A DNA stretch of 64,000 nt, taken from Siphonobacter sp. BAB-5405 (GTDB lineage Bacteria; Bacteroidota; Bacteroidia; Cytophagales; Spirosomataceae). The stretch spans positions 1-64,000 of the forward strand of contig NZ_NJAG01000001.1 of NCBI RefSeq assembly GCF_002872335.1, given 5' to 3'. Shown piece by piece: positions 60 to 58,371 of this stretch (its first letter is position 1; each line of letters begins with the position of its first letter). The position numbers and the translations under genes are program-made. A model generated the notes under the pieces. The model made no database searches. It worked only from the letters and a program-made list of their open reading frames with translations, and had not been told where the DNA came from.

Positions 60-293
60 ATAGCCCCGTATGCAATGCGGGGCAGGTACAGCACGGTAGG
101 CACAGCCTACCAAATTAAAAAGTCCGTAGTGAATACTACGGACAACCCGTGGGTCAATGTCATTAGCTCCGTATGCCATGAGGACTACGGACAACCTGTC
201 CCGCTACCTTTATCGGGTTTTCCCCTACCAAAACTGAAAACCGCAGCGGCAGCCGCTAAAAACTGAAAACCCAAAACTGAAAACTCAAAACTC
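60..293. repeat. Intergenic island A: REP-like hairpins plus heptamer array
   Basis: Hairpins: GCCCCG 63-68 with CGGGGC 78-83; GTAGGC 96-101 with GCCTAC 105-110; a perfect 9-bp stem 122-130 with 135-143 (GTCCGTAGT / ACTACGGAC, loop GAAT); AGCGGC 245-250 with GCCGCT 252-257. ACTACGGACAACC is repeated directly at 135-147 and 184-196. Five in-phase heptamers follow at 259-293 (AAAACTG, AAAACCC, AAAACTG, AAAACTC, AAAACTC), with two more copies near 232-242. The array ends 12 bp before a -7 box. No matching inverted array is visible on the left, where the window begins. The small open frame across this stretch looks spurious. Confidence 0.75.
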
Positions 294-1885: not shown

Positions 1886-3007
1886 ATGCTTTCTTCCGCA
1901 GAAAAACAGAGATATCAAAAACATCTTCTCTTGCCCGAGGTCGGTGCAGAAGGACAGGAACGACTGAAAAATGCCCGCGTGCTGGTGGTGGGTGCAGGAG
2001 GATTGGGATGCCCGGTTCTGTTGTATCTGGCGGCAGCGGGCGTAGGTACCTTAGGTATTGTGGACGGCGATACGGTGGATGAAACCAACCTGCAACGACA
2101 GGTACTCTACGATGCAGCCGACGTAGATCGGCCCAAGGCCACCACGGCCGCAGCTCAGTTACGTCGATTAAATGATCTGATTGATTACGAAGTTTTTACG
2201 ACGCATCTGGTGGCTGAAAATGCCGCCAGTATCATCGAACGATTCGATTTGGTCGTGGACTGTACCGATAATTTTTCCGTTCGCTATCTGATTAATGACG
2301 TTTGTGTACTTTCAGAAAAGCCCTTTGTATACGGAGCTATTCATCGTTTTGAAGGTCAGGTATCCGTATTCAACTATCCGTCTAACGGCGTTTTAGGACC
2401 TACGTATCGTTGTTTGTTCCCCAATCCGCCGAGTGGACTTGAAATACCTAACTGTTCGGAAGTAGGTGTACTGGGCATTTTACCCGGCATGATCGGGATG
2501 TACCAGGCTAATGAAGTAATCAAGATTATTACCGGCGTGGGTAAAGTACTGTCGGGCGAACTGATGCTGATGGATTTGCTCGAAAATACCCAGCGAAAAA
2601 TGAAGTTCAAACGCCGGTCTGATGCCGAAATGCTGGCCCAACAAGGCATGGAAACGCACCGAAAGCTGGCGGCCAATGTTTTGTTACCCAACGAAATCTC
2701 GGCCATTGAACTCATGCGGCAACTCAAACGGGAGCCGGATACCTTTTTACTCGACGTTCGTAATAGCGATGAGTACGAAGTGTGTCACCTGCCCGGAGCC
2801 GTGCTGATTCCCATGCCCACGATTCCGACCAGCGTTAAACATATCCCACGCGATCGTCCCGTGATTGTCTATTGTCACCACGGGATGCGTTCGGCAAGTG
2901 TCATTCAGTACCTCGAACAGGAACACGGCTACGATAACCTTACCAATTTAAACGGGGGCATTCATGCCTGGGCAGATGAAGTCGATCTTCGGATGGCGAA
3001 GTATTGA
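1886..3007 (+). CDS. MoeB/ThiF-like adenylyltransferase with C-terminal rhodanese domain
   Basis: This is an E1-like enzyme that adenylates the C-terminus of a ubiquitin-like sulfur carrier (MoaD or ThiS type), fused to a sulfurtransferase. The nucleotide-binding loop GAGGLG is at residues 36-41 and the acidic DCTDNF motif follows. The conserved PNCSEVGVLG segment is present. The rhodanese domain occupies about residues 275-373, with the loop CHHGMRS and active Cys330. ATG at 1886 is chosen; a GTG two codons earlier (1880) is possible. The two CxxC pairs that bind zinc in E. coli MoeB are not intact: the first reads TYRC and the second is absent. No moa, thi or cys-carrier genes adjoin it, so the pathway (molybdopterin, thiamine or other thiolation) is open. 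Confidence 0.87.
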   Translation: MLSSAEKQRYQKHLLLPEVGAEGQERLKNARVLVVGAGGLGCPVLLYLAAAGVGTLGIVDGDTVDETNLQRQVLYDAADVDRPKATTAAAQLRRLNDLIDYEVFTTHLVAENAASIIERFDLVVDCTDNFSVRYLINDVCVLSEKPFVYGAIHRFEGQVSVFNYPSNGVLGPTYRCLFPNPPSGLEIPNCSEVGVLGILPGMIGMYQANEVIKIITGVGKVLSGELMLMDLLENTQRKMKFKRRSDAEMLAQQGMETHRKLAANVLLPNEISAIELMRQLKREPDTFLLDVRNSDEYEVCHLPGAVLIPMPTIPTSVKHIPRDRPVIVYCHHGMRSASVIQYLEQEHGYDNLTNLNGGIHAWADEVDLRMAKY

Positions 3008-3009
3008 TT

Positions 3010-3266
3010 GGGTTGGATGGGGTTTGATGCAGTTTGAGGTTTGAAAGTCGTTTGAAAATGGTTTGAGGTTGAAGTAAGCCCTAGCAAAAGGTTGAGCTTA
3101 GTTCGGTGGTTGCTTAGGTTTAAAAGTTTAATAGGGGCAAGCTATCTACCGTCCCTTGACTCACCCCTGAACTATTGTCACCTTTAAACGCTATTCAAAC
3201 CTTAAACTTCAAACTATTTTCAAACTTCAAACCCAATCAAACCTGAAACGCCATCAAACTTCAAAT
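3010..3266. repeat. Intergenic island C: inverted heptamer arrays
   Basis: The left arm (about 3014-3085) is made of GTTTGA-type units (GGTTTGA, AGTTTGA, CGTTTGA). The right arm (about 3185-3266) is made of their complements: CAAACCT 3196, TAAACTT 3203, CAAACTA 3210, then CAAACTT 3221 and CAAACCC 3228. The two arms are imperfect inverted repeats and could fold into a long stem around a unique centre of about 100 bp. The arms begin 3-7 bp from the moeB-like stop and end 3 bp from the DinB-like stop, so the island fills the whole convergent gap. Confidence 0.7.
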
Positions 3267-15569: not shown

Positions 15570-16442
15570 ATGGCTTCTCTTCTTGATTTTATAGGTAATA
15601 CCCCGCTGGTGGAAATTACGCGGTTGCATAGCAATCCCAAGGTTAAGATTTTTGGCAAGCTGGAGGGGCACAATCCCGGTGGCAGCGTGAAGGATCGTCC
15701 GGCCCTGAATATGATTCGCAGTGCGTTGGAACGGGGTGATATTCAATCCAATACGTCGTTGATCGAAGCAACCAGCGGCAACACGGGCATTGCCCTGGCC
15801 ATGATTGCCCGCCTGTATGATTTGACTATCGAGCTGGTGATGCCGCAGAATTCAACCCGCGAACGCGTATTAACGATGGAGGCCTTCGGAGCAAAAGTAA
15901 CGCTGCTGGAAAGTATTGAAGCCTGCCGAGACTACGCTCAAAGCAAGGCTGACGCGGGTACGCATTACCAACTCAATCAGTTTGCCAATCCAGATAATTA
16001 CCTGGCTCATTACAAAAGCACCGGTCCGGAAATCTGGCGGGATACGAATGGGACCATTACGCATTTCGTCAGTTCGATGGGTACGACGGGTACGATCATG
16101 GGCAATTCCCTGTACCTGAAAGAGCAAAATCCAGCTATTCAAATCGTTGGCTGTCAGCCTACCGAAGGTTCGTCCATTCCCGGTATTCGCCGCTGGCCTA
16201 CGGAGTATCTACCAAAGATTTTTGATCCCAGTCGAGTCGACCGTACCATGGATGTAGCCGAGGCCGACGCTGTAGCCATGACGCGTCAGCTGGCCCGGGT
16301 CGAGGGAATTTTTGGAGGTATGAGTTCCGGTGGCTGCGTATCGGCAGCTCTGAAGCTGGCTTCCGAACTGGAAAGTGGCGTCATCGTCTGCATCATCTGC
16401 GACCGGGGCGATCGGTACCTTTCGAGTGAATTATTTGGCTAA
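15570..16442 (+). CDS. cysM: Cysteine synthase B (O-acetylserine sulfhydrylase)
   Basis: PLP-dependent fold-type II enzyme making cysteine from O-acetylserine and sulfide (CysM forms can also use thiosulfate). The PLP lysine is Lys41 in GGSVKDRPA. The substrate loop EATSGNTGIA and the PLP phosphate loop SSMGTTGTIMG are present, and the C-terminal segment GMSSGG is normal. At 290 aa it is close to CysM and shorter than most CysK. GIRRWPTEYLP also favours CysM. It is monocistronic between the AT-rich region and a strong terminator. Confidence 0.93.
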   Translation: MASLLDFIGNTPLVEITRLHSNPKVKIFGKLEGHNPGGSVKDRPALNMIRSALERGDIQSNTSLIEATSGNTGIALAMIARLYDLTIELVMPQNSTRERVLTMEAFGAKVTLLESIEACRDYAQSKADAGTHYQLNQFANPDNYLAHYKSTGPEIWRDTNGTITHFVSSMGTTGTIMGNSLYLKEQNPAIQIVGCQPTEGSSIPGIRRWPTEYLPKIFDPSRVDRTMDVAEADAVAMTRQLARVEGIFGGMSSGGCVSAALKLASELESGVIVCIICDRGDRYLSSELFG

Positions 16443-16454
16443 TCAGTATTAACG

Positions 16455-16492
16455 AAAAAGGCCGCGAAGAACGATTTCTTCGCGGCCTTTTT
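16455..16492. terminator. Bidirectional intrinsic terminator
   Basis: Perfect 17-bp inverted repeat 16455-16471 / 16476-16492, loop CGAT, GC-rich core flanked by A5 and T5. It lies between convergent cysM and the DUF5606-type gene. Confidence 0.92.
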
Positions 16493-16511
16493 GCTTGTGC
16501 TAGGAAATAGC

Positions 16512-16949
16512 TTAAGCAGCTTTTTCTTCTTCCGTATTTTCTTCCTTCACCTCGAATACTTCGGGCAGATAGGAAGATAGCAGGTTATACCAGGAAATCA
16601 TTTTACGAATGTCCGAAGGATACACTTTCTCCCGGTCGAATTCCGGAAATACCTCACCCAGGAACTCACGCAGTTCAGTTTCGCTGGCGTTTTTAGCGTC
16701 GATTTCTACTTTTTCGCCGTGTTTCTCACGAATGGCCGCAAAAATATCGGGCAGGGGTTTTGAGCCTTCTTCGCTATCAGAATATACGGAAATTTCTTTC
16801 AGTACCGAAACCCGGGCGTTTGCTCCTACAACGGTACGGCCTTTTTTCTCGTCGATGGTTTCAACAATAACTCCCGTACGAGTAGGCTTCAAAATGCGGT
16901 ATAAACCGGGCTTTCCGGAGATATGGGCGATTTCTTTCAACAATTCCAT
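16512..16949 (-). CDS. DUF5606-like conserved protein
   Basis: A soluble protein of 145 aa with no signal peptide or membrane segment. It opens MELLKEIAHISGKPGLYRIL, a pattern I associate with a conserved Bacteroidota family annotated DUF5606; the function is not known. The middle has small-barrel character (TGVIVETIDEKKGRTVVGA) and the tail is acidic (EVKEENTEEEK). The internal ATG at 16949 is preferred over the one eight codons upstream because family similarity seems to begin there. It lies about 160 bp downstream of engB on the same strand. Confidence 0.7.
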   Translation of the reverse strand: MELLKEIAHISGKPGLYRILKPTRTGVIVETIDEKKGRTVVGANARVSVLKEISVYSDSEEGSKPLPDIFAAIREKHGEKVEIDAKNASETELREFLGEVFPEFDREKVYPSDIRKMISWYNLLSSYLPEVFEVKEENTEEEKAA

Positions 16950-17112
16950 GGAATCGAATTTATTTGACAACAAACTGTTTTTCCGTATTCACATAATATC
17001 CTCATAACCGTTTGATTATAAGCAATATCATGGCTCCTTACCAAGGCTCAACGTATAAGGCATTGACCTTTTTTGGTAAATGGAATCGCAAAAGTAGCCA
17101 ATCCTTGCCCGA

Positions 17113-17724
17113 TTACCGCCGAACACCCCGAAAATCCGCGTTCAATTCTCCAATCGCTTCCGCAATTTCGTCGCGGCCTACTCCGTCAACGGAAGAGGTG
17201 ACGAAGTATTTCGGCATCTCCGAAAAAAATTGTAAAAAGCCATCGCGATACTTTTTCACCTTCGGTTCTACCTGGGATTTGCTCAGTTTATCGGCTTTGG
17301 TAAACACCAGATAAAAAGGTACCCCCGCTTCTGTCAATTGCGTCATAAACTCCAGATCAATGGACATCGGATCGTGCCGAATATCCACCAGCACAAACGT
17401 ACAGATCAGATTAGGCCGATTTTCGAGGTACCCGAAAATCATGGGTTCGAACTTTTCCCGCTCACTTTTGCTGAGCTTGGCGTAGCCATAGCCGGGTAAA
17501 TCGACTAGGTACCAGGAATTGTCAACCGAAAAATGATTGATCAATTGGGTCTTACCAGGAGTTTGGGAAGTCTTTGCCAGATCCTTCCGCCGTACCAGCG
17601 AATTGATCAGCGAGGATTTACCAACGTTCGACCGTCCGATAAAGGCATATTCGGGGCGGTCGGGGGCGGGGCATTTTTGCCAATCGGTATTACTAACCAG
17701 AAAAACGGCTTCTTTAATCTTCAT
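17113..17724 (-). CDS. engB: Ribosome-biogenesis GTPase EngB/YihA/YsxC
   Basis: TRAFAC-class GTPase needed for assembly of the large ribosomal subunit; it acts in the cytoplasm. G1 GRSNVGKSS, switch I threonines in SQTPGKTQ, G3 DLPGYG, G4 TKAD and G5 TSS are all present, and 203 aa is the usual length. ATG at 17724 is chosen (MKIKEAVFLVSN); another in-frame ATG lies three codons upstream at 17733. A -7 box TACCTTTG lies at 17749-17742 on this strand, only 17 bp from the chosen start, predicting a very short leader. Confidence 0.93.
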   Translation of the reverse strand: MKIKEAVFLVSNTDWQKCPAPDRPEYAFIGRSNVGKSSLINSLVRRKDLAKTSQTPGKTQLINHFSVDNSWYLVDLPGYGYAKLSKSEREKFEPMIFGYLENRPNLICTFVLVDIRHDPMSIDLEFMTQLTEAGVPFYLVFTKADKLSKSQVEPKVKKYRDGFLQFFSEMPKYFVTSSVDGVGRDEIAEAIGELNADFRGVRR

Positions 17725-17741
17725 CGATTCCAAATTTCCTA

Positions 17742-17749
17742 CAAAGGTA
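17742..17749 (-). promoter_or_regulatory. Candidate -7 box for engB (TACCTTTG)
   Basis: Plus-strand CAAAGGTA is TACCTTTG on the coding strand, an exact TAnnTTTG. The heptamer array of island B begins 6 bp further upstream, so the array covers the -33 region. Confidence 0.5.
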
Positions 17750-17754
17750 CGAGT

Positions 17755-18067
17755 GAGTTTGGAGTTTTCCGTTTAGAGTTTTCAGTTTGGAGGCCCTGTC
17801 GCTTAGCGTTTGAAGTACTTACCGCAGCCGTTTAGCGTTGTTGAATGACCGCCAGTCAACTCAGCTATCGTAAATCCGAAAGAGCGTTAAATGGTCTCGC
17901 TGTTCCAGATTTGTAACCCGGAACCCGCCTGCTGTGCATTGGTAAGGCATGGGATTAGAAATCCCTTACAGATCGCTTTCGGATTGCAAATCCGAAAGAG
18001 CATTGGCCAATCGATTCAAACCCTAGCGGTTCTCAATTGAAAACTCTAAACTCTAAACTGCAAACTC
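17755..18067. repeat. Intergenic island B: inverted heptamer arrays around REP-like hairpins
   Basis: The left array is five in-phase heptamers on the minus strand (17755-17789: CAAACTC, AAAACTC, TAAACGG, AAAACTC, CAAACTG). The right array is four on the plus strand (18040-18067: AAAACTC, TAAACTC, TAAACTG, CAAACTC). Both point outwards. Inside are GGGATT 17951-17956 with AATCCC 17960-17965, a 10-bp stem 17976-17985 / 17989-17998 (CTTTCGGATT), and a direct repeat AAATCCGAAAGAGC at 17872-17885 and 17988-18001. The island fills the divergent engB/hemE gap, so it is not a terminator. Confidence 0.8.
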
Positions 18068-18079
18068 TCATCTCCCTCG

Positions 18080-18087
18080 TACCTTTG
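18080..18087 (+). promoter_or_regulatory. Candidate -7 box for hemE (TACCTTTG)
   Basis: Exact TAnnTTTG ending 4 bp before the hemE ATG, so the transcript would be nearly leaderless. It is the same octamer as on the engB side; the heptamer array ends 12 bp upstream. Confidence 0.5.
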
Positions 18088-18091
18088 TGGC

Positions 18092-19123
18092 ATGGAAATC
18101 CTTCAGAATGATTTGTTTTTACGGGCCGCTCGGGGCGAACAGGTCGAACGAGTACCCGTATGGATGATGCGACAGGCCGGCCGGATTTTGCCCGAATACC
18201 GGGCCGTACGGGCTCAGGCGGGTAGCTTCATCCATTTATGTACGACGCCCGAACTGGCGGCCGAGGTCACCATTCAGCCCGTTGATTTGCTTGGCGTGGA
18301 TGCGGCCATTATTTTCTCCGATATTCTGGTGGTGCCGGAAGCCATGGGCCTGCCTTACGAAATGATTGAAGCTCGCGGACCGGTATTCCCCACCACCGTC
18401 AAGACACTGGCAGACGTAGATAAACTGAAAGTAGCCGATCCGGAGGTGGAATTGAAATACGTGCTGGATGCCATTCGAATCACCAAAAAAGAACTCAATG
18501 GACGCGTACCGCTCATCGGTTTTGCTGGGGCACCGTTTACGATTCTTTGTTATATGCTGGAAGGCAAAGGCTCCAAGACATTCTCGGTAGCGAAGAAATA
18601 CCTCTACGCGGAACCGGAACTCTCCCACCGCCTCCTCCAGAAAATTACCGATACGACCATTGCCTACCTAAAAGCTCAGGTAGCTGCCGGAGCGAACCTG
18701 GTGCAGATTTTCGATTCCTGGGCGGGCATTTTGTCGCCGCAGCAGTACCGGGAATTTTCGCTACCCTACATTGCTCAGATCAGCGAGGCCCTTCAGGAGT
18801 TAGTACCTGTGACTGTGTTTGCCAAAGGTGCGTTTTTTGCCCGGCGGGAAATGAATGCCCTCAACTGTTCGGTCGTAGGACTCGACTGGAATATGGACAT
18901 TGCCGAAAGCCGGGAAATGATTCCGGATAAGGTGTTACAGGGAAATCTGGATCCTTGCGTACTCTACAGCGATTTCGACGAGATCAAACAGCAAACGCAG
19001 GACATGCTACGTCAGTTTGGTGGACAGAAACACATCGCCAACCTCGGCCACGGTGTTTACCCCGATACGGATCCGGATAAGGTTCGCTGCTTCATCCAAA
19101 CCGTGAAGGAATTTCGTTTTTAA
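18092..19123 (+). CDS. hemE: Uroporphyrinogen decarboxylase
   Basis: Cytoplasmic heme-pathway enzyme that removes four carboxyl groups from uroporphyrinogen III to give coproporphyrinogen III; no cofactor. The signature [16 protein letters not shown] near residues 22-37 carries the conserved Arg27 and Arg31. The second signature GFAGAPFTI and the active-site Asp region [12 protein letters not shown] are present, and the C-terminal [10 protein letters not shown] holds the conserved His. The length of 343 aa is normal. The ATG follows the -7 box directly. A strong terminator follows. Confidence 0.96.
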
Positions 19124-19140
19124 CGAATTTTGATACCAGC

Positions 19141-19182
19141 AAAAAGCCCGTTCGTTCAAGTACTTGAACGAACGGGCTTTTT
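19141..19182. terminator. Bidirectional intrinsic terminator
   Basis: A 42-bp perfect palindrome (21-bp arms 19141-19161 / 19162-19182; the RNA loop would be the central GTAC), A5 at one end and T5 at the other. It lies between convergent hemE and the lipoprotein gene. Confidence 0.9.
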
Positions 19183-19194
19183 GGTATACCCTAT

Positions 19195-19680
19195 TTACTT
19201 GAGGGCTTTATTCTTTTCAATGCGTAGCACGCGGGAAGAAGCCGAAGGACTAAGCAAGGTGAAAGTAGCGTCGCCGATGGTCGTTTCAATCTGTTTTTTC
19301 GTATCGAAATTCGTCTCCAGCCAGCGAATCGCACCCGAGGGGTCCGCACCGTCGTAGGGTAAGGTTCCGATCAATACAAAAAAGGGAAGCGTATTTCGAA
19401 TGTTTTTGCCGGGCGTGATGGTTGCCGTCGCCTTCACCGATTCAACGGTATTCACGTCCGAACTCATCGTCACGATCATGTACTCCGTGGAATCCGTACT
19501 TTTCCGGTTCGTCCAGCTATTGCCTGATTTTCCGCCAATGTTCTTAAGCGTCGTATACCCTTCTTTTTCCAGCCGGGTGTAGATATCTACGGGCTTTATC
19601 CCACCAATGGCTTCAACTGGCTTGGTCTTGGCACAGGCGAAACCCAGCAATACGAGCAAGAGCAACAGGTAATTTTTCAT
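19195..19680 (-). CDS. Hypothetical lipoprotein
   Basis: An exported protein of 161 aa with a leucine-rich signal (LLLLLVLLGFAC) and probable lipidated Cys16. The rest is soluble, with alternating beta-type segments (TVESVKATATITPG, LETNFDTKKQIETTIGDATFTLLS). I do not recognise a domain. The gene is the last of a minus-strand run after the kinase gene, 46 bp away, and is followed by a strong terminator. Confidence 0.75.
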   Translation of the reverse strand: MKNYLLLLLVLLGFACAKTKPVEAIGGIKPVDIYTRLEKEGYTTLKNIGGKSGNSWTNRKSTDSTEYMIVTMSSDVNTVESVKATATITPGKNIRNTLPFFVLIGTLPYDGADPSGAIRWLETNFDTKKQIETTIGDATFTLLSPSASSRVLRIEKNKALK

Positions 19681-19726
19681 ACGTAAAAGTCTTCAATGCA
19701 TACGTCCCTTCTGCGTTCGTAGCGAC

Positions 19727-20707
19727 CTATACTTCAGCCAATAAGGCTTCGGATAACAGAAGAGATTTGTTGATGGGTACTACGCCGACTTCTTCGCAAA
19801 CGAGACCACCGCCTAAATTAGAAAGGCCCGCGATCTGTTTAGGTGAAAGCCCCAGGGCAACGCAACAGGCCGCGATACTAATCACCGTATCGCCTGCCCC
19901 TGATACGTCCGCAATCTGACGAATGTGAGCGGGCAAATGGCATTTTTGTTCCTGAAAATCAATATAGACGCCGCGTTCGGAAAGCGTAATCAGTGTACCA
20001 TCCAGCGATAAGGCCTCTTTGAGTTGTTGGGCGGCAGATTCAAGTTCAACGGGTTTGCGTACATCGAAGCTGATGTTAAGTCCTTCGCGTAATTCTTTCA
20101 GATTGGGTTTGAAAAGCGTAGTTCCTTTGTAATGCAGGAAGTTTCGCTTTTTCGGATCTACTACCGTTGGAATATTCAGCTCGCGGGCCATTGCCACGAC
20201 TGCTTCAATGAGTTCTTTTGAGATGACTCCTTTGTCGTAATCTTCAAAGATGATTACCTGGCAACTGCTGGCAAGCTCTCTGATTTTAACCAGCAACGCT
20301 TCGCGTTCTTCACTGGAAATCAGGGCGTCGGTTTCTGTATCGACCCGTACGACCTGCTGACTGCCCGCAATGATCCGTTCTTTCACCGTCGTAATGCGTT
20401 CCTTACTCCGTACAATTCCCAATGTGGCGAGTCCTTTACTTTCCAGCAAATGACACAGCTCATCGCCGTAGGAGTCCTTCCCAATCACCGAGCAGGCAAT
20501 GGCCTTTGCTCCGAGTGCCTGTACATTCAGAAGTACGTTTCCGGCTCCTCCCAGACGAAACTCCCGGTTTTGGGCGACCACGACGGGAACGGGAGCTTCG
20601 GGCGAAATACGATCGACGCGACCGAATACGTAGCTGTCGATCATCACGTCGCCGATCACTAATACACTTAATTCATTAAACGCCTCAAAGACTGCTGGTA
20701 ATAACAT
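19727..20707 (-). CDS. PfkB-family kinase, probable D-glycero-beta-D-manno-heptose-7-phosphate kinase
   Basis: A ribokinase-fold sugar kinase resembling the RfaE1/HldE N-terminal domain, which makes heptose 1,7-bisphosphate for LPS inner core. The opening LSVLVIGDVMIDSYVFGRVDRISPEAPVP is typical of RfaE1. GGAGNVLLN follows, and the PfkB active-site loop DVSGAGDTVIS carries the catalytic Asp. No nucleotidyltransferase domain is fused, so a separate hldE2-type partner would be needed elsewhere. The start at 20707 (MLLPAVFEAFNEL) matches family N-termini; an ATG 19 codons upstream (20764) is possible. Other PfkB functions cannot be fully excluded. Confidence 0.83.
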   Translation of the reverse strand: MLLPAVFEAFNELSVLVIGDVMIDSYVFGRVDRISPEAPVPVVVAQNREFRLGGAGNVLLNVQALGAKAIACSVIGKDSYGDELCHLLESKGLATLGIVRSKERITTVKERIIAGSQQVVRVDTETDALISSEEREALLVKIRELASSCQVIIFEDYDKGVISKELIEAVVAMARELNIPTVVDPKKRNFLHYKGTTLFKPNLKELREGLNISFDVRKPVELESAAQQLKEALSLDGTLITLSERGVYIDFQEQKCHLPAHIRQIADVSGAGDTVISIAACCVALGLSPKQIAGLSNLGGGLVCEEVGVVPINKSLLLSEALLAEV

Positions 20708-28324: not shown

Positions 28325-28831
28325 TCAGCGAGTCAGTTCCCATCGCCAGAGTGAGCCTTCTTCCGAGTCGAGTACTTCTGTTTTCTTCTGGAAGCCTACT
28401 TTGCCTAACACTTTGGCCGAAGAATTTTCTTCAGCATGCGTATGAGCGACAATGGTATGAACTTCCGGAAAAGTAAAGGCGTAATCCACCAGGGCATTCG
28501 CTGCTTCAGTGGCCAGTCCACGATCCCGGTGGCTGATTTTAATTTCGTAACCAATTTCCACGACTCCCTGATCGTTGGGCTGTCCTTTGTAGCCGCAACT
28601 GCCAATCAGCAGGTTCTCCGGACGATAAATGATCAAATGTGCACCCCATTTTTCAAGCGAAGGATCTTTCTTGACCTGCTGATAGAACGCTGGAAAAGCG
28701 TCCGTATTCTCACTCCAGCGACGAGGCACGTTTGCTCCAATCACTTGGCTGAGCACATTATTACCGGCCAGTACGGCCTCCCAGAGCGTTAGATCACAAG
28801 CTAGTAAACGAAGACGAGACGTTTCGATCAT
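28325..28831 (-). CDS. GNAT N-acetyltransferase (RimJ/RimL-like)
   Basis: 168 aa with the ETSRLRL opening, the LIGSCGYKG strand and the acetyl-CoA loop region KISHRDRGLATEAANALVDYAF of RimJ/RimL-type GNATs (Acetyltransf_3). The C-terminal beta strand pattern HAEENSSAKVLGKVGFQKK is typical. It transfers an acetyl group to an amine of an unidentified substrate. It is convergent with the regulator gene, 41 bp apart. Confidence 0.88.
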   Translation of the reverse strand: MIETSRLRLLACDLTLWEAVLAGNNVLSQVIGANVPRRWSENTDAFPAFYQQVKKDPSLEKWGAHLIIYRPENLLIGSCGYKGQPNDQGVVEIGYEIKISHRDRGLATEAANALVDYAFTFPEVHTIVAHTHAEENSSAKVLGKVGFQKKTEVLDSEEGSLWRWELTR

Positions 28832-28872
28832 GAATCGGAGATAATTCTGATTAAGGATTGAATATAGACTAA

Positions 28873-28902
28873 AAAAGCGGAAAAGGTATCTTTTCCGCTT
28901 TT
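28873..28902 (-). terminator. Intrinsic terminator
   Basis: 13-bp perfect stem 28873-28885 / 28890-28902, loop GTAT, with A/T runs. It follows the Ig-like secreted protein gene on the minus strand and separates it from the GNAT gene. Confidence 0.85.
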
Positions 28903-58197: not shown

Positions 58198-58371
58198 GAG
58201 TTTGATGTTTAGGGTTTTGAGTTTAATGTTTGATTACCACAATCGAATTCTTAACCACAGGGCAATCAGTTTCATCAGGCTGATTACTCTGTGGTTACTA
58301 CATTATGAGCCCTGGTCAGTGGTGACTCCTTCCATCCAACTCAAAACACGAAACACCTAAACACGAAACGC
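58198..58371. repeat. Intergenic island D: inverted heptamer arrays around a nested hairpin
   Basis: The left array is five in-phase heptamers at 58198-58232 (minus strand: CAAACAT, TAAACTC, AAAACCC, TAAACAT, CAAACTC). The right array is four at 58343-58371 (AAAACAC, GAAACAC, one-base slip, TAAACAC, GAAACGC), ending three bases before the hemW ATG. Between them, AACCACAG 58253-58260 pairs with CTGTGGTT 58289-58296 and AATCAG 58264-58269 pairs with CTGATT 58280-58285. No -7 box separates the right array from hemW. Confidence 0.78.

Follow-up and report, generated by a model that had tools for sequence, protein, structure and literature searches.

What are the islands, bounded by short heptameric arrays, that fill several gaps between genes of Siphonobacter sp. 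BAB-5405, and how could such arrays arise? In the window (the first 64,000 nucleotides of contig NZ_NJAG01000001.1, the whole stretch analysed), four gaps (60-293, 3010-3266, 17755-18067 and 58198-58371) had been described as carrying NAAACNN units in phase, and all four do. In island 3010-3266 the spacings are 7, 10 and 11 rather than strictly 7. Exact in-phase AAAC arrays of at least three units occur five times in the window and never in 100 dinucleotide shuffles, and there are 16 arrays of at least two units against 4.0 +- 1.9 after shuffling. The excess extends to the genome as searched (6,487,815 bases in 246 contigs), where AAAC(N3)AAAC(N3)AAAC has 413 matches against 23 for the reversed pattern and the four-unit pattern 256 against 14, overlapping matches inside one array being counted separately in these totals. 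Spacing counts on the window's contig (258,720 bases) have their maximum at 7, and 10, 14, 21, 28, 33 and 35 are in excess too; a single 13-unit array inflates the multiples of 7. Long homogeneous heptamer arrays (of AAACTGG or AAACGGA) are also found in this genome, at C1:258599-258686, close to a contig end, C8:83607-83680 and C8:190730-190817; these are ordinary simple repeats, unlike the mixed-unit arrays considered here.

The arrays are intergenic and oriented. Among the 11 on the window's contig, 10 lie between predicted genes, one lies partly over the edge of a prediction and none lies inside a gene (the genes come from a custom script, which places their edges approximately). Arrays in the left half of a gap are on the - strand and those in the right half on the + strand, so that they point outwards, as the original prediction held, in all eight cases on the contig that could be assigned to a gap and in 30 of 31 across four species of the genus (this genome 8/8, G001 7/7, G004 7/8, G005 8/8). 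The rule holds less strictly outside the genus, where few exact arrays were sampled (G030 4/7, G064 5/6, G007 1/3, G083 1/1). The results support a genome-wide, intergenic family of repeats in paired arrays that face outwards within the genus.

In the majority of cases inspected, two heptamer arrays make up the matching arms of a long DNA hairpin between genes. Three islands of the window have matching arms that exceed every one of 100 shuffles: the inverted repeat 17741-17788/18041-18088 scores 28 (shuffle maximum 11.5), 3012-3074/3201-3259 scores 23 (13.5) and 58200-58223/58338-58362 scores 13.5 (11.0). Pairing of arrays at both ends does not extend to island 60-293, whose best inverted repeat (9.0) is below the shuffle maximum (11.0) and which has exact arrays at its right end only. 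For the hemE-gap island, the predicted fold has both arms paired around the interior (z -4.95). The image of arrays that bracket islands is thus right in that the arrays are paired and mirrored, but they form the arms of one hairpin rather than brackets. Where interiors in the window are long, other repeats seem to have enlarged or interrupted a hairpin. The features are collected in the table below.

Coordinates of arrays, hairpin arms and associated repeats (window positions unless another stretch is named)
Feature	Position	Strand	Remarks
Exact array	260-291	+	5 units
Exact array	3197-3214	+	3 units
Exact array	17757-17788	-	5 units, NAAACNN
Exact array	18041-18065	+	4 units, NAAACNN
Exact array	58200-58231	-	5 units, close behind the upstream gene's stop codon
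hemE-gap island, left arm	17741..17788	-	Outer part runs into TACCTTTG-like box
hemE-gap island, right arm	18041..18088	+	Pairs with left arm in predicted fold
hemE-gap island, interior	17789..18040		At least one further hairpin, GCTTTCGGATT..AATCCGAAAGAGC, near 17975-18002
Convergent-gene island, left arm	3012..3074	-	GTTTGA phrases spaced 7, 10 and 11
Convergent-gene island, right arm	3201..3259	+	Inverted repeat with 3012..3074
Island 58198-58371, right arm and two-unit arrays	58338..58369	+	Inverted repeat with left array
Window-start island, right-hand arrays	231..291	+	Arrays at 231-241 and 260-291; no matching left arm found
CCGTAGC..GCTACGG repeat	61-200		Window
CCGTAGC..GCTACGG repeat	128900-129188, 150466-150750		Own contig
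CCGTAGC..GCTACGG repeat	150338-150732		G004 stretch
GCTGACGC/TTCGACAGGCTCAGGCTGAC hairpin	118824, 43749, 38485		G007 stretch (L228-L237)
GACNTTA-arm mobile palindrome	75443-75678		G064 stretch (L218-L227)
GACNTTA-arm mobile palindrome	115108-115365, 2733-3176, 28719-28892		G007 stretch (L228-L237)

A separate hairpin repeat, CCGTAGC..GCTACGG, recurs inside islands and gaps of the genus and corresponds to the REP-like interiors reported earlier. At both edges of the hemE island stands an outward-facing TACCTTTG-like box (17741-17753 and 18076-18088), presumably as expected for two divergent Bacteroidota promoters, here putative. A promoter and terminator scan of 16000-20000 returned fewer sites than in shuffles; no terminator-like site was found in the hemE gap, and the hairpin stems end in AAAC with no T run directly after the stem.

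In some relatives the same architecture is compact. In G007 and G013 the starts of paired arrays are separated by only some 60-77 bases, and the pair forms one hairpin; compact copies measure about 75 bp, and their interior is a short GC stem and loop only. Typically, three GTTTNNN units lead into an inner stem, GTGGCTGACGC for example, and a loop of about 13, after which the sequence is mirrored. A pattern built on this form (three GTTTNNN, 12-42 bases, three NNNAAAC) matched in 17 of 17 genomes, all chosen for having arrays, with no match to the reversed control; there were 12 matches in the genome studied here and 91 in G004, of the same genus.

The free triplets vary between loci yet match between the arms of one locus. 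With the best of five registers taken for both comparisons, and a few loci present in two sets, triplet agreement within and between loci was 0.667 and 0.332 in the own genome (3 pairs), 0.896 and 0.505 in the rest of g1 (4 pairs), 0.874 and 0.665 in g17 (22 pairs), 0.778 and 0.453 in g3 (4 pairs), 0.926 and 0.514 in g9 (3 pairs) and 0.711 and 0.389 for mixed loci from the hairpin-pattern search (18 pairs); in g26 (2 pairs) it was 0.833 for both. In each of the six sets with three or more pairs, none of 500 between-locus draws reached the within-locus value. Twelve copies aligned from two g17 genomes (two of 14 copies, L260 and L274, were left out) pointed the same way by some measures: 21 cells had changed on both sides against 10.3 after shuffling, and the covariation score was 0.150 against 0.084, neither being reached in 500 shuffles. 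By others the alignment was close to the shuffled values: pairs changed on both sides numbered 9 against 7.2 (88/500 shuffles as high), and further pair types 16 against 15.8 (274/500). Shifting the partner by one to three columns lowered pairing from 90.5% to 27-42%. The tetramers are invariant in this alignment because the copies were selected by their tetramers.

Comparison of close species shows what becomes of the pairing with time. Double changes in 932 stem pairs numbered 10 matched, where about 1.2 were expected, and 8 of other kinds; single changes broke a pair in 54 cases, mended one in 16 and fell outside both types in 12. Copying between arms is weakly supported by these figures, because the single breaks far outnumber the matched changes and six of the latter fall in non-periodic, mostly terminator-like stems. 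It seems that the hairpins mostly decay and that renewal is by replacement.

The tetramers seem to be kept over time. A hand count over eight aligned arrays from two close pairs gave one changed site in 132 for tetramers and 10 in 75 for triplets, although selection by exact tetramers hides perhaps half of the tetramer changes in this comparison; over all aligned gap sites of the close pairs, change was 0.097 and 0.087, an intergenic background of about 0.09. The count omits rows 3008 (shifted) and 144281 (indel), the misaligned rows at 165165 and four unaligned arrays, and a pooled figure of 3/307 and 28/174 was set aside because it mixes both directions and includes one misaligned, rewritten gap. 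Such constancy would suit arrays in which a protein that binds DNA or RNA, with a footprint of seven bases, makes contact at each AAAC. Cold-shock, S1 or Csr proteins have been proposed, in passages of PMC4679880, as binders of the TAACTGA arrays of Beggiatoaceae, and the commonest unit here, AAACTGA, is one base away from that motif. By this analogy a protein-binding role is conceivable but improbable: the counts are small, with unaligned rows left out and some tetramer changes hidden by the selection, and binding explains neither the pairing of the arms nor the replacement of one phrase by another.

Other phrases are indeed used. A search of gaps for inverted repeats, free of any assumed phrase, recovered the same architecture with other phrases of seven to ten bases, including (words read by eye) GNNATGA, AGTTAAN, AGGAGNN, GACNTTA, TATTCNN and CAGTNGG at period 7, GANTGAGN at 8 and CTCTGATNA-like words at 9-10. 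Within 2.06 million bases of Spirosomataceae, 68 of 151 inverted repeats scoring at least 18 have periodic arms, the lag being 7 in 38, 8 in 13, 10 in 11 and 9 in 6; in 1.31 million bases around hemE, from other Bacteroidota and some family members, the proportion is 9 of 37. These counts cover gaps of 40 to 700 bases and, in the part from other Bacteroidota, loci of at least 10 kb. The GANTGAGN hairpin pattern occurs in 63 of 222 family genomes, among them genomes free of AAAC arrays such as G033, and had no reversed-control matches. The inner stem GGCTGACGC is also found under GANTGAGN arms, in G013 and G081, and outer arms and inner stem are therefore separable modules.

Comparison of orthologous gaps revealed both presence or absence of hairpins and replacement of one hairpin by another between relatives. 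In the hemE gap of G001, at a locus 95% identical, every AAAC of both arrays is kept and the triplets differ; in G005 arrays are kept at both edges around an interior that cannot be aligned. The G001 gaps that match 58193 and 165165 of the own genome hold another hairpin sequence, between 400-base flanks that are 96 and 94% identical at the former and 94 and 91% at the latter. One gap was followed through nine Larkinella genomes: two, G185 and G188, have a GTTTNNN hairpin; six, G189, G187, G083, G190, G186 and G069, have a GANTGAGN hairpin (of lower score in G189, G186 and G190); and G021 has 52 bases only, with a short unrelated stem. Around this swap the 300-base flanks of G187 and G185 are 91 and 94% identical, and a 2-kb query gave 94 and 96%. 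Further swaps separate G190 from G188 at two other gaps and G064 from G007 at 188094 and 78876 of the G064 stretch. For the pairs G000/G001 and G064/G007, identity was below 70% in 10 of 16 gaps with a periodic hairpin in either species, against 55 of 209 other gaps, length differences also lowering identity in this count; the remaining 6 of the 16 are conserved. The pair G030/G073, with 15 shared gaps, served as an example only.

Some gaps are tight in one species and filled in another. The gap is 3 bp in G004 and 262 at the convergent-gene island (3012-3259), 4 bp at 146296 of the own genome and 104 in G005, and, at a further site, 0 bp in seven of nine g17 genomes, 14 bp in G021 and a 108-bp hairpin in G187; these differences fit gain and loss alike. 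In the swap described above, G185 and G188 have similar outer arms and different inner stems. Because the outer arms of G185 resemble the G188 allele, import by homologous recombination, without a mobile agent, could explain the GTTTNNN hairpin of G185. A long near-perfect hairpin with GCTGACGC and TTCGACAGGCTCAGGCTGAC also recurs in G007 and is missing from three matching G064 gaps.

Such replacements bear on neutral slippage, in which the arrays would be simple heptanucleotide repeats and their inverted copies would come from template switching. The idea has been published for heptamers, as cited in a passage of PMC4692102; period 7 dominates among the periodic hairpins, and there are a few long homogeneous arrays, such as the one of 13 units with a single triplet at 258599. 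If slippage were the main maker, neighbouring triplets should resemble each other, and in two of seven sets they lean that way (P 0.077 and 0.100). In the own genome, however, 5 of 59 neighbours are identical against 4.1 after shuffling (P 0.40), and none of the seven sets falls below 0.05, arrays of up to eight units being covered. Nor does slippage account for the different phrase families that replace each other at one gap, or for an inner stem common to copies across the genome. Since adjacent triplets show no clear excess of likeness over shuffled ones, plain slippage, an origin that the original prediction had left open, is disfavoured as the main maker and has a low probability. The likeness to cyanobacterial STRR arrays, drawn at the same time, holds for head-to-tail, in-phase heptamers above chance, but not for near-identical units as slippage would leave them.

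The placement of the hairpins invites a different explanation, that they act as RNA. In gaps of 40 to 700 bases, a range that applies, with the 40-kb stretch of G083 left out, to the mismatch counts below as well, 66 periodic hairpins fill a median of 82% of their gap; of 78 hairpin edges facing a stop codon, 66 are no more than 20 nt away from it, where uniform placement gives 52.7 +- 2.2; and the share of gaps with a periodic hairpin is 40 of 694 for the co-directional, 19 of 178 for the convergent and 7 of 232 for the divergent class. Proximity to stop codons and rarity in divergent compared with convergent gaps would be understandable if these were transcribed intercistronic structures that serve in processing, 3'-end protection or termination. 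With structure kept and sequence free, any phrase would then do, which would also allow different hairpins at one gap, and the predicted RNA folds of three copies are strong (-54 to -66 kcal/mol; z -11.6 to -15.2).

If RNA pairing were under selection, G.U mismatches should exceed A.C mismatches on the transcribed strand. They do not: the counts are 81 and 85 in 101 co-directional periodic hairpins, 44 and 57 in 57 co-directional non-periodic ones, 23 and 29 in 31 convergent periodic and 23 and 21 in 61 convergent non-periodic hairpins. Ten divergent hairpins gave 15 and 5 (p 0.04) and were not weighed, direction being undefined there. The acceptor stems of 23 tRNAs, used as a control, gave 7 and 1. 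As the mismatches have no transcribed-strand bias, unlike this control, the arms appear to be alike for DNA reasons, and the absence of bias argues for a process at the DNA level. The both-side changes of the family alignment, moreover, include flips from A-U to U-A, no Rfam family reached its gathering score in the window or in 20 hairpin loci, and RNA pairing leaves the seven-base period and the fixed tetramers unexplained. We regard an RNA-level function as a minority reading, though a better one than slippage or protein binding.

The hairpins are dispersed in many copies, very unevenly. At least one four-unit match was found in 94 of 222 family genomes, with extremes within single genera: 81+64 matches in G030 against 0+0 in G073 (g26), and 63+71 in G201 against 0+0 in G035 (g31). 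The reversed control is raised too in G002 (92+276 against 16+90), G003 (227+131 against 45+19) and G008 (8+9 against 10+8). In Larkinella (g17), the inner stem GGCTGACGC..GCGTCAGCC has 35, 26, 18, 34, 4 and 16 copies in six genomes and none in three others. BLAST with two hairpin loci gave at least 54-69 matches per genome, on both strands, in six g17 genomes, those beyond the home locus being 74-93% identical among the matches listed; G186, G021 and G069 gave 1-3 matches, confined to the flanks among the matches listed. The elements thus combine inverted repeats with dispersed copies, as MITEs do.

Short GC hairpins in many intergenic copies also recall REP or REPIN palindromes moved by a RAYT (Y1) transposase, and Y1 genes (PF01797) are common, being present in 181 of 222 family genomes, with three matches in the own genome. 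The search for an enzyme, which was for PF01797 alone, gave no match in the array carriers G001 and G005, however, and G241, another carrier, does not appear in the list of genomes with one; neither a GTAG nor a CGTC tag was seen by eye at the hairpin base in 20 loci. A Y1 enzyme as a present-day requirement is therefore disfavoured, past action being compatible with these findings, and REP-type transposition, the other origin left open at the outset, is very improbable as the explanation of the family.

No target-site duplication was visible by eye at 20 GTTTNNN loci with their flanks. A different element, with TCAGTACTGG or TCAGTACTGGACATT ends and GACNTTA arms, has target duplications of about 7-13 bases by eye, the clearest being TAGCCGATCT (10 bases), in G064 against an empty site in G007. 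In one place this palindrome sits inside another hairpin.

Viral contigs carry the phrase as well. There were 34 distinct GTTTNNN hairpin matches in 33 stretches from 30 contigs, against 11 stretches for the reversed control; eight of those 11 (L353-L363) contain a 75-base match, perhaps one conserved phage sequence. Inverted-repeat scores were at least 18 in 31 of the 41 viral matches listed and below 18 in 10, and 31 of the 34 distinct matches are outside the predicted genes, often close to the end of one. The GC content of the viral stretches (0.41-0.69, and at least 0.57 in 29 of 33) is above the 0.45-0.56 of the sampled family stretches, and five of six viral loci checked encode phage-family proteins (tape measure, portal, terminase, transposase, structural protein). 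The phrase is therefore not confined to Spirosomataceae, and phages can carry it.

Our working hypothesis, to which we give a probability of about 0.5, is that the islands are non-autonomous, exchangeable palindromic DNA, tolerated between coding ends, and that the arrays are its arms. In each arm the seven-base phrases have four constant positions and three free ones, as GTTTNNN on the left and NNNAAAC on the right, and a GC-rich stem and a short loop often follow inwards. We infer that such elements are inserted, captured or exchanged by recombination and tolerated only outside coding sequence. They may be born as near-perfect palindromes, which would then decay or give way to another hairpin, and copying from arm to arm during replication may help to keep the arms alike. 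The tetramer every seven bases might be the spacing read by a putative moving or copying agent, or microhomology for strand switching; this is a guess. A bolder version, which we hold to be doubtful and about as probable as the RNA-level function, is that the hairpins are mobile across phyla, carried by phages and built on a fixed mirrored grammar of four plus three bases, with an agent that would read spacing rather than sequence and gaps that would act as exchange slots.

The original prediction knew of no described element of this form. That was too strong, as stems of heptads in Nostoc and intergenic heptamers of other bacteria are on record. The tRNA-Leu intron of Nostoc, in the passages of PMC4476775 that describe it, has a stem of degenerate heptads, of Class I (TDNGATT) or Class II (NNTGAGT), and in scattered lineages Class I stands where others have Class II, from which the authors inferred that the whole region was replaced, Class II by Class I. 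Our hairpins resemble this stem in that both arms are made of degenerate seven-base motifs and that classes of motif are swapped at one site. They differ in that the Nostoc case concerns one group I intron site and one-way replacement, whereas here there are many gaps, more phrases and no intron; the setting of a group I intron P6b is absent from the window and 20 loci, where the elements sit between protein genes and have no Rfam match.

According to passages of PMC4679880, direct TAACTGA repeats are intergenic and patchily distributed in marine Beggiatoaceae, some cyanobacteria and five Bacteroidetes; they mostly point to a start codon, one Bacteroidetes set being reversed after a stop codon. 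That unit is fixed, with 169 direct sets and one inverted set in the main genome, while here the units are degenerate and the arms mirrored, AAACTGA being the commonest unit, and arrays also follow stop codons instead of mostly preceding starts. The heptamers GGGAATC and GGGGA(C/T)T of Xanthomonas and Nostoc, as presented in parts of PMC4692102, are likewise intergenic, very variable between close relatives and sometimes noted as inverted pairs, but they are of G-quadruplex type and hairpins are not the rule, unlike the elements here. Both sources report intergenic heptamers, from several phyla in all, without an accepted origin.

REP, REPIN and MITE sequences (passages of PMC3733652) are also small, dispersed, intergenic palindromes; by comparison, no tag tetranucleotide or target duplication was seen by eye in ours, there is no present need for RAYT, and several phrases are used. 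Species-level small variable segments, described in passages of PMC2884548, are short and vary at a given site among closely related genomes, and the concerted palindromes of Nematomorpha mitochondria (passages of PMC6649704) similarly keep their arms identical without clear function; both belong to other organisms, and the passages describe no heptad grammar. In the literature consulted, which covers few subscription journals, we found no account of mirrored heptad hairpins of many phrases in gaps.

If our hairpins are mobile, they would add a class of palindromic element without a known enzyme, found in phage genomes too. Here, heptad hairpins occur genome-wide, in many phrase families, and are exchangeable at fixed sites. 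As different phrase families occupy one gap in relatives only a few per cent apart, an old puzzle becomes testable by strain comparison. We conclude that these hairpins are a real and under-described kind of intergenic palindrome, close, as far as the passages of PMC4476775, PMC4679880 and PMC4692102 show, to the heptad stems of Nostoc and to the heptamer arrays of other bacteria.
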